A stretch of 64,000 nucleotides of DNA from Planctomyces sp. (GTDB taxonomy: Bacteria; Planctomycetota; Planctomycetia; Planctomycetales; Planctomycetaceae), in contig JAHBXW010000002.1 of NCBI GenBank assembly GCA_019636235.1, positions 1-64,000 on the forward strand, in the 5' to 3' direction. The notes beneath the pieces are model-generated. The model was not told the DNA's origin. It worked only from the letters and a program-made list of their open reading frames with translations, and searched no databases. A program made the translations under genes and the position numbers. Of this stretch, positions 1 to 1,732 are shown piece by piece; position 1 is the stretch's first letter; every line of letters begins with the position of its first letter.

Positions 1-848
1 AAGGGCTCAAGATATTCAAACCCCGCATCAATGAGCCCGGAGAGTGAGCTGTCCTTGTCCACGACTGTGCATGTCCAACAACCGAATCTCGCTGATGTGC
101 TCCCGCACGAAGGCGCGTCATCGTCACTGAGGATGAACGGGCATTCGCCACCCTGAGCGTTGCGATACAGCGTGACGAGCTCGCGATGGTCTCCTCCCCA
201 AGGTGGGCGAACGTTCAGCAGGATGTGCCAGACGTCGTCATTCGTCAGGTCGACGATTGGTCGAAAAATTAGACAGCCGCGAATGTCATTGTGAGGATTC
301 AGGCGATTGTCGCGGTCCGCATAGGAGTCGATGCGTTGTGCCCGGGCGATCGATTCGGCTCGGCGAACACCCAATAGAAGGATGACCTCGCCCGACTCGG
401 AAACTTGATCGCGGATAAACCGCGTAGTGGGGCGGATCTTCATTCGATCCGTACACCACCGGAAGTTGCGGTTTGGTGCCGGGTAGCCGCGGCCGAGGAG
501 ATTCACCCAGAACGAATCATTGTCCTCCGGGTGGCTCCGAATGACCGTTAAGGGCAGCCCGATTGTCGAAACGCCCTCTTCGATGAAATCGAGTGTCTTT
601 GCGACGGATGCTTGATAGACGGGTGACTCAACCAGTGTGTCGTTCGACAATAGATAGACTTGACGACGACGCTCGTCTGGCGGAAGCGAGAGGATCGCTT
701 CAGCGACGAGCTGAAGCATTAGGGTGCTGTCTTTTCCCCCTGAAAACCCGATAATCCACGGCTTCGCATGCTGTTGAAGATATTCGTCGCGTATCGTTCG
801 GCGAACGATACGAAGCCTTTCCGGCAAGGTTTCAAGTCCGGGCGTCAT
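1..848 (-). CDS. dndC: DNA phosphorothioation sulfurtransferase DndC, 3' part outside window
   Basis: The first 282 residues of a gene that continues past the left edge. DndC is an ATP-pyrophosphatase/PAPS-reductase-like iron-sulfur enzyme that works with the DndDE complex to put sulfur into the DNA backbone. The reverse strand from ATG at 848 reads without a stop. It shows the PP-loop SGGKDS (residues 36-41), LPPDERRRQVYLLSNDTLVE just after it, RWCTDRMKI (130-138), LGVRRAES, a YRNAQGGECP block (228-237) and a Cys cluster (C236, C248, C257, C260) in CGSTSARFGCWTC, suited to a 4Fe-4S cluster. These blocks are typical of DndC and not of assimilatory CysH. No dndB-like frame precedes it: the upstream 260 bases and the repeat block carry no gene. 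If dndD and dndE exist they lie beyond the left edge. Confidence 0.88.
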   Translation of the reverse strand, partial: MTPGLETLPERLRIVRRTIRDEYLQQHAKPWIIGFSGGKDSTLMLQLVAEAILSLPPDERRRQVYLLSNDTLVESPVYQASVAKTLDFIEEGVSTIGLPLTVIRSHPEDNDSFWVNLLGRGYPAPNRNFRWCTDRMKIRPTTRFIRDQVSESGEVILLLGVRRAESIARAQRIDSYADRDNRLNPHNDIRGCLIFRPIVDLTNDDVWHILLNVRPPWGGDHRELVTLYRNAQGGECPFILSDDDAPSCGSTSARFGCWTCTVVDKDSSLSGLIDAGFEYLEP

Positions 849-1110
849 GCGTAGGGCTGGAGTGGTCGGTTAAAAAAATTGTACGAATCCGAGTCGAATA
901 GCCGTCCAAAGCCCGGTTCCGAAACGGGCGAGGAGGTTCCGTAGGTCCAGTGGAATCACCCCTTGGTTAGAGTGTGGCGGTCGCTTCCTCGCTTTTCAAC
1001 CGTTCCACCGGACGGGGGCACTTCCCCAAGCGTAGACGGTGGCATCGATACAACTCGGCCGCTTGGGGAACGCCGTATTGACGGTGGCGCGGATGAATTC
1101 GGCCCTTCGG
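849..1110. other. Gene-free stretch upstream of dndC
   Basis: No convincing gene on either strand. Close to the dndC start, on the minus strand, are a run of seven T and a TACAAT hexamer (about 870-885) that could be a -10 element. A matching -35 at normal spacing is not clear. The stretch leads into the repeat block. Confidence 0.4.
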
Positions 1111-1388
1111 TGGGACGTTGAACGGCAGGCGCTGACGTTTCCGGCACGTGTCGGCGCGTAACGGCACGGACGAGGCGGCACGGCGGGGATAAACCCCGCC
1201 GCTCGTGGGGCACCGAATCTCCAGGCGCTGACGCTTCTGGCTCGTATTGACACGTGACGAGGCGGCACGGCGGGGATGAACCCCGCCGCTCAAACCCCGC
1301 CGCTCGGGGGACACCGAATCTCCAAGCGCTGACGCTTCTGGCTCGTATTGACACGGACGAGGCGGCATGGCGGGGTTCATCCCCGCCG
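1111..1388. repeat. Tandem block of three imperfect hairpin-bearing repeats
   Basis: Three imperfect units at about 1111-1205, 1206-1291 and 1305-1388. Each has a GCGCTGACG core followed by a TTCTGGCTCGTATTGACAC-like segment (diverged in the first unit), then a GACGAGGCGGC stretch and a perfect hairpin of the form CGGCGGGG-loop-CCCCGCCG (about 1181-1201, 1269-1289 and 1369-1389). Units 2 and 3 are almost identical. Unit 1 is diverged in its left half. From memory, GCGCTGACGCTTCTGGCTCG-type intergenic repeats are common in planctomycete genomes. The hairpins could also end transcription between dndC and the tRNA. Short open frames across the block have repeat-derived sequence and are not genes. 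Confidence 0.85.
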
Positions 1389-1645
1389 TGATTGCGAATC
1401 GATCCGACCGGCGTCCTATGAGTGCGTTTCCAACAGCTACGTGGACGCGCTGAGAAGCCGTATGGCGAGGCGCTTTACCCGACTCGGGGTCGTGAACCCC
1501 CGGGGCGGCAGCGGAAGGAAGTGAGCGGCGTTCAGGTCGCGATGCGGCCTAGCACAGTTTTCAGCACATCTTGCGAGGAAAAGACCATGGCCCAGCCCAA
1601 AACACTTGCCACGCGGCACTTTGTGGCGACGCAATCGCCAATAAG
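1389..1645. other. Spacer between repeat block and tRNA-Ser
   Basis: No gene supported. It holds a short GGGG-TCGTGAACCCC-type palindrome near 1485-1502. Part of it (GAACCCCCGG) matches the T-arm of the neighbouring tRNA over ten bases only, too short to call an attachment-site remnant. Confidence 0.35.
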
Positions 1646-1732
1646 CGGAGAGGGGGGGATTCGAACCCCCGGTCCCCTTTCGGAGACACAGCATTTCCAG
1701 TGCTGCACAATCGGCCGCTCTGCCACCTCTCC
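1646..1732 (-). tRNA. tRNA-Ser (anticodon GGA)
   Basis: An 87-nt class II tRNA. The acceptor stem GGAGAGG/CCTCTCC closes with discriminator G at 1646. The anticodon stem CAGCA/TGCTG encloses the loop CTGGAAA, which gives anticodon GGA (serine codons UCC and UCU). A long variable arm and a GGTTCGAATCC T-loop are present, as expected for tRNA-Ser. The CCA tail is not encoded. Its 3' end faces the repeat block and dndC, the usual arrangement when elements insert at a tRNA 3' end. Confidence 0.95.

Follow-up and report, generated by a model that had tools for sequence, protein, structure and literature searches.

A probably acquired phosphorothioation cassette at an old tRNA-Ser integration site in a planctomycete genome

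The 64,000 bases analyzed here, positions 1 to 64,000 of contig JAHBXW010000002.1 (C12) of Planctomyces sp. (assembly GCA_019636235.1) and called the window throughout, begin with part of a gene of DNA phosphorothioation, a block of repeats and a gene for tRNA-Ser. A first-pass annotation, made from the letters alone, had read this arrangement as the likely edge of a phosphorothioation island, raising the questions of what lies beyond the edge, what marks the border, and whether a full Dnd-Dpt restriction system is present. With good confidence, we propose that the bacterium carries a horizontally acquired phosphorothioation cassette, dndC-dndD-dndE/HerA-dndA and apparently without dndB, which lies between tRNA-Ser(GGA) and proB at an old tRNA-Ser integration site (Table 1). 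As such it is a good example of an already known type, a Dnd modification cassette at a tRNA integration site.

Table 1. Features at the start of the window and at the end of contig C41 (coordinates without a contig name are those of the window)
Feature	Coordinates	Strand	Remarks
dndC, first 282 codons	3..848	minus	ATG at 848; frame open at contig start
Repeat block	1095..1390	none	three 64-base units and a 22-base inverted repeat
Integrase-to-tRNA scar	1425-1644	plus	last codons of a tyrosine recombinase, then spacer to the tRNA-Ser 3' end
tRNA-Ser(GGA), proposed attachment site	1645-1732	minus	3' end at 1645, facing dndC
DndE-HerA-type gene, C-terminal piece	C41:297811-297987 (of 297,990 bp)	minus	matches Aquisphaera residues 454-512
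DndA-type desulfurase	C41:296442-297602	minus	complete frame, same strand as the dndE piece
proB	C41, past the desulfurase	opposite to desulfurase	

The genome is assembled in 45 contigs and scored 99.99% complete. Base 1 of the window coincides with base 1 of contig C12 (455,910 bases), and therefore the cut in dndC is a limit of the assembly; a truncation of the gene in the cell is unsupported. Even with its 282 residues, the fragment scores above the cut-off of TIGR03183, the DndC model of NCBIfam (325.6 bits, cut-off 290.4), though about 40% of that model (positions 267-447) lies beyond it, and in PADLOC it matches the DndC model with an E value of 1.7e-107 and SspD with one of 5e-10. Each of the six positions of the SGGKDS loop is conserved in 88 or 89 of the 89 aligned rows; cysteines 132, 236, 248, 257 and 260 are present in all 89, and Cys192 in just 57. 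Both the model score and the conserved motifs bear out the earlier reading of a DndC-type enzyme with SGGKDS and a Cys cluster at the window edge, and argue strongly for the identification of this frame as DndC, a PP-loop sulfurtransferase. One place with dndC was found in the assembled genome.

The first-pass annotation had suggested that an extension to the left might reveal further dnd genes. When the DndE-HerA protein of Aquisphaera insulae (locus L002) was run as a query against the source genome, the only match found (78% identity in 59 residues) lay where contig C41 ends; 63 codons of the gene are assembled there and run up to an in-frame stop. The Aquisphaera homologue, to which that 78% identity over the piece refers, has both expected domains (Pfam DndE, 26.6 bits, cut-off 25; DUF87, 31.1 bits, cut-off 23.2), and the DndE of the source genome would likewise be fused to HerA. 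In Aquisphaera insulae the operon is made of dndC, dndD, a gene for a fusion of DndE with a HerA-type ATPase, and a divergent dndA, and it is this same operon that is matched by both the window DndC (76%) and the C41 piece (78%). We infer that the start of C12 and the end of C41 are two pieces of one dndC-(dndD)-dndE/HerA-dndA operon, a join that is drawn from gene content, strand, position and composition rather than from reads. If co-linearity with Aquisphaera is assumed, the missing stretch would amount to an estimated 4 kb or so, and the rest of dndC, dndD and the first part of dndE would fall within it. Extension to the left has thus recovered the end of a DndE-HerA gene and a DndA-type gene on C41, and neither dndD nor dndB.

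The desulfurase that follows the dndE piece belongs to the desulfurase fold family (Pfam Aminotran_5, 219 bits), and PADLOC rates it alike as DndA (E 1.3e-133) and as SspA (E 5.7e-134). Against the NCBIfam DndA model it scores 361 bits, for a cut-off of 480, and is outscored there by the IscS/NifS models (404, 396 and 386 bits, with IscS at 404 and NifS at 386), none of which reaches its own cut-off; the name DndA rests on the position of the gene. As its identity to the Aquisphaera DndA is only 51%, against 76% and 78% for DndC and the dndE piece, the desulfurase may have a history separate from that of dndC and dndE.

The composition of these genes sets them apart from their surroundings. 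The GC content of dndC is 56.4%, that of the dndE piece 53.8% and that of dndA 55.7%, while the flanks average 66.9% (sd 2.2, minimum 61.0; 1166 overlapping windows of 846 bases). In steps of 200 bases, the change is sharp at both assembled sides, from 0.67 to 0.55 between proB and dndA and from 0.56 to 0.67 immediately upstream of dndC. By its foreign composition, the dnd cassette looks horizontally acquired. Among the best 80 of at least 563 loci found with DndC, the closest is that of Aquisphaera (76%). Within the bacterial family, 10 of 170 genomes, the source genome included, have a DndC match with an E value of at most 1e-40; the best of the nine others is 51% identical to the window DndC, and the genome of the same genus (G001) has no match at that threshold. 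In a tree of 89 rows, the window protein groups with Aquisphaera (support 100/99), adjoining four verrucomicrobial rows, and the same-family rows form a separate and distant clade of eight (the ninth, L159, with 171 residues, was dropped as too short). These same-family DndC-like proteins (L151-L159) lie in open frames of 461-697 amino acids, and their clade may possibly represent a different DndC-type system.

On the other side of dndC stands the tRNA-Ser(GGA), the sole Rfam match over positions 1-3000, whose 3' end faces the gene as it had been annotated. The 220 bp that precede this 3' end are 93% identical to positions 4449-4666 of contig C26, the sole other match in the assembled genome, in which all 32 candidates were scored. 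The copy on C26 lies between the C-terminus of an integrase and a second tRNA-Ser, with anticodon CGA, and opens within the final codons of the C-terminal part of a tyrosine recombinase (HTFRH ... GHVDPNVIRNYSH), whose motifs we take to be the recombinase boxes. Its stop codon is 187 bases from the 3' end of tRNA-Ser(CGA). The C26 integrase is a fragment as well, a piece of 64 residues that scores 19.0 bits against Pfam Phage_integrase (cut-off 27.1), and two relatives are full-length integrases, with 84.2 and 71.7 bits. In the window, the integrase is reduced to its last codons, which adjoin the repeat block. On C26, an open reading frame with an RHS repeat (2445-4479, locus L102; Pfam RHS_repeat, 39.2 bits) overlaps the start of the integrase remnant on the other strand; it is possibly a second cargo at the second tRNA-Ser of the source genome.

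A search with the integrase piece gives 22 matches in 19 of the 170 family genomes, again with the source genome included. A tRNA is found within about 1.5 kb in ten of these loci, that on C26 among them, and it is in every case a tRNA-Ser (GGA, CGA or TGA), with no other tRNA in that distance around any of the 22. As the tRNA-Ser 3' end faces the integrase C-terminus in all ten, at 95-310 bp from the integrase stop, this integrase family is tied to tRNA-Ser 3' ends. Among the 12 loci where no tRNA was found, one (G006) has a tRNA-Ser match cut by the contig end. We considered whether the shared 220 bp arose when a tRNA-Ser gene was simply duplicated, and rejected this, since in G001 the closest counterpart of the GGA tRNA is the GGA isoacceptor (94%) and that of the CGA tRNA the CGA isoacceptor (90%), against 77-82% for the others; the two loci are most alike on the 3' side. 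In two further genomes of the survey (G121, locus L182; G126, locus L186), the tRNA-Ser integrase is followed by a nearly identical set of genes, with an AAA ATPase and a ThiF-family protein among the products (as profiled in G121); the site is tRNA-Ser(CGA) in one genome and tRNA-Ser(GGA) in the other, and the two look like one element at two isoacceptor sites.

The proposal that the dnd cluster belongs to an island at a tRNA gene is sustained by the foreign GC content and by the tRNA-Ser integration site with its integrase scar. The border is another matter. It had been placed at the repeat block, and this had to be given up because copies of the block, or its hairpin core, occur elsewhere in the same genome, on C9, C26 and C1; the mark of the island border is the integrase-to-tRNA scar. 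Within the block, the 64-base unit is present at 1095-1158 (63%), 1191-1254 (the reference) and 1292-1355 (95%), with a spacing of about 100 bases, and the 22-base inverted repeat lies at 1266-1287 and 1369-1390. The longer matches are at C9:36940-37054 (96% over 115 bases) and C1:1519-1642 (72%). As the strict 18-base core, searched among 181 loci, gave the window's own copies at the C12 start only, we delimit the wider family by its hairpin core together with the longer matches. The block is a dispersed repeat of the source genome. Farther along, two direct copies of a 183-base repeat (4875-5057 and 5211-5393; 96% identical, 336 bases apart) sit between a putative MscS-like gene (3672-4835) and a putative metal-hydrolase-like gene (5437-6276).

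A second attachment copy was sought on the far side of the cassette. The final 20 kb of C41 contain no copy of a 22-base piece of the tRNA 3' end at up to three mismatches, and the final 3 kb of the contig gave no useful short match. Behind the related integrases of three genomes (80, 60 and 11.6 kb), no exact match reached 14 bases, and one 12-base match to the tRNA 3' end in G121 was taken as chance. The limits of the element are therefore tentative. The genome of the same genus offers little help in this regard. In G001, proB and tRNA-Ser(GGA) lie far apart; for each, the surrounding 60 kb was compared with the open reading frames of the window and with those in the terminal 40 kb of C41. 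The shared genes are proB (80%) and three matches at 25-37% identity, one of which (37%, 371 bits; distance to the tRNA 32 kb in G001, 26 kb in the window) is in our opinion probably a paralogue. Neither flank is conserved in G001, the neighborhoods of proB and of tRNA-Ser(GGA) both differing, and the clean empty site that the first-pass annotation had proposed to look for in relatives was not shown. Equally, the same gene order in many relatives, which would speak against an insertion, was not seen: G001 has no dndC match at the threshold given above, and the scar is absent from three of its tRNA-Ser flanks. A separate search for copies of the flank in relatives scored the five best candidates per genome and could miss some.

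The attribution of the cassette to the tRNA-Ser element deserves caution. The scar might be older, with the operon arriving separately between tRNA-Ser and proB, a course of events that we regard as possible, although we lean against it. It is favored by the lack of an att repeat beside dndA, by the GC content of the scar (60.9%), which is intermediate between those of the cassette and the host, and by the dispersed repeat block that separates the scar from dndC; on the other hand, the scar begins just 577 bases from the start of dndC, and the low-GC stretch starts directly past the repeat block. The reading that we prefer is that an element with a tyrosine recombinase was formerly integrated at the 3' end of tRNA-Ser(GGA), the old integration site, and would have brought the dnd cassette with it. 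Of this element, only the last integrase codons and the integrase-to-att spacer would be left.

As regards gene content, dndD gives no match in the assembly, either with the family model or with the Aquisphaera DndD protein as a query; dndD is presumed to lie in one assembly gap across which C41 and C12 would adjoin. The first-pass annotation had seen no dndB upstream of dndC, and indeed none is present there in the window. TIGR03233 likewise gives no match in the assembled genome, in a search whose control matched 2 of 14 named genomes, none above the cut-off. As far as the assembled sequence goes, the cassette is apparently without dndB. The DptF model found nothing in the source genome and 21 others, with a control equally silent in 14 genomes. 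No restriction genes, and among them no dpt or pbe genes, adjoin the assembled ends on the tRNA-Ser or the proB side: the assembled operon ends with dndA, followed by proB, and past the tRNA-Ser, on the window side, there is a glucuronyl-esterase-like gene. The idea of a Dnd-Dpt island is so far unsupported.

After the dnd operon of Aquisphaera (L002, 15045-17794) there is a GHKL ATPase like those of BbrUII/HgiDII-type restriction enzymes (69.5 bits, cut-off 550), and the second gene past that operon is weakly similar to the PP_RS20740 family; the two might form a restriction partner for DndCDE-HerA. Near the DndCDE-HerA operon of another planctomycete (L008, 7475-9842), an IetS-like protein is found (PADLOC E 5.8e-119), preceded by open reading frames that are putatively of AAA type. 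A complete Dnd restriction-modification system, with its restriction genes located in the gap or at another place in the genome, is worth considering, and we judge it somewhat unlikely. The length of the gap is an estimate, the closest operon, that of Aquisphaera, is the one adjoined by the GHKL/BbrUII-like gene and its neighbor, and, of 4287 taxa with dnd modification genes in a published survey, 3416 have a nuclease (PMC10853773). Against this stand the neighbors of the assembled ends (tRNA-Ser and the glucuronyl-esterase-like gene on one side, proB on the other), the DndD model, presumed to reach PbeC-type ATPases and empty in this assembly, and the DptF search, which was empty too, as was its control.

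A decayed remnant, in which the dnd operon has lost dndD together with parts of dndC and dndE and its ends alone survive, is very unlikely: dndD is missing from a genome of such high scored completeness and the neighboring integrase has already shrunk to a stub, but both broken genes reach within 3 bases of a contig end, as an assembly gap gives, the dndC and dndE pieces keep their frame, with 76-78% identity to one and the same operon, and the frame of dndA is complete.

The favored arrangement, a dndC-dndD-dndE/HerA-dndA cassette across an assembly gap, can be set beside known Dnd systems. The fusion of DndE to HerA has been described (PMC10853773), and a DndEi helicase was reported (Zheng 2016, JBC, as cited in PMC7464106). 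With the DndCDE-HerA ('DndEi') modules, the locus would share the trio of DndC, DndD and HerA/FtsK-fused DndE, with the difference that here dndD and the front of DndE lie outside the assembly and that a DndA-type gene follows dndE. Among 40 DndE-HerA loci, selected from 80 by a near-full DndE-HerA match, DndC and DndD are each present in 37 by clustering. DGQHR/DndB-like clusters are found in the fetched flanks of 13 of the 40 (four members were profiled and all four carry DGQHR), and a DndA-type gene in those of three, many of the loci being cut by contig ends. From these counts, the trio seems commonly to lack a DndB nearby, and of the two traits it is the downstream dndA that is rarer. The proposed order C-(D)-E-A and the apparent absence of dndB are also those of the archaeal DndCDEA-PbeABCD systems (PMC6459918), whereas here the DndD model finds no DndD/PbeC-type ATPase and no pbe gene stands beside the assembled ends. 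In the case of the E. coli dnd islands at tRNA genes, the likeness lies in the atypical GC content, the tRNA 3' end and the integrase; PMC4373003 gives these islands dndBCDE, dptFGH upstream and an integrase gene, whereas here no dndB or dpt gene is seen and the integrase is a stub. We suggest a distance of about 7 kb from the tRNA to the end of dndA, if the gap is of the estimated 4 kb.

In the Dnd families, DndA draws sulfur from cysteine and DndC transfers it, while the DndD ATPase and DndE-HerA scan and open the target DNA, in which sulfur replaces a backbone oxygen (PMC10853773 and PMC6459918). By analogy with these families, the DndA of the source bacterium would supply sulfur to be transferred by DndC, and DndD with DndE-HerA would find and open the DNA. 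That this bacterium has sulfur in its DNA is a prediction from the genes.

All together, a lead that was cut at the window edge has been followed to another contig, where the rest of the operon is apparently located. This adds to the known systems a small dnd cassette that apparently lacks dndB, whose DndE would be of the helicase-fused type and whose operon includes a desulfurase gene, and the integrase family found at several tRNA-Ser genes across the bacterial family marks the landing sites for such cargo. One may go further and picture a self-sufficient, stand-alone phosphorothioation cassette (dndC-D-E/HerA-A), lacking both DndB and a restriction partner, set at tRNA-Ser by an integrase family specialized in serine tRNAs and kept after the integrase decayed, a view that we offer as distinctly doubtful. 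If it were true, selection in this bacterium would act on the DNA mark itself, and not on restriction.
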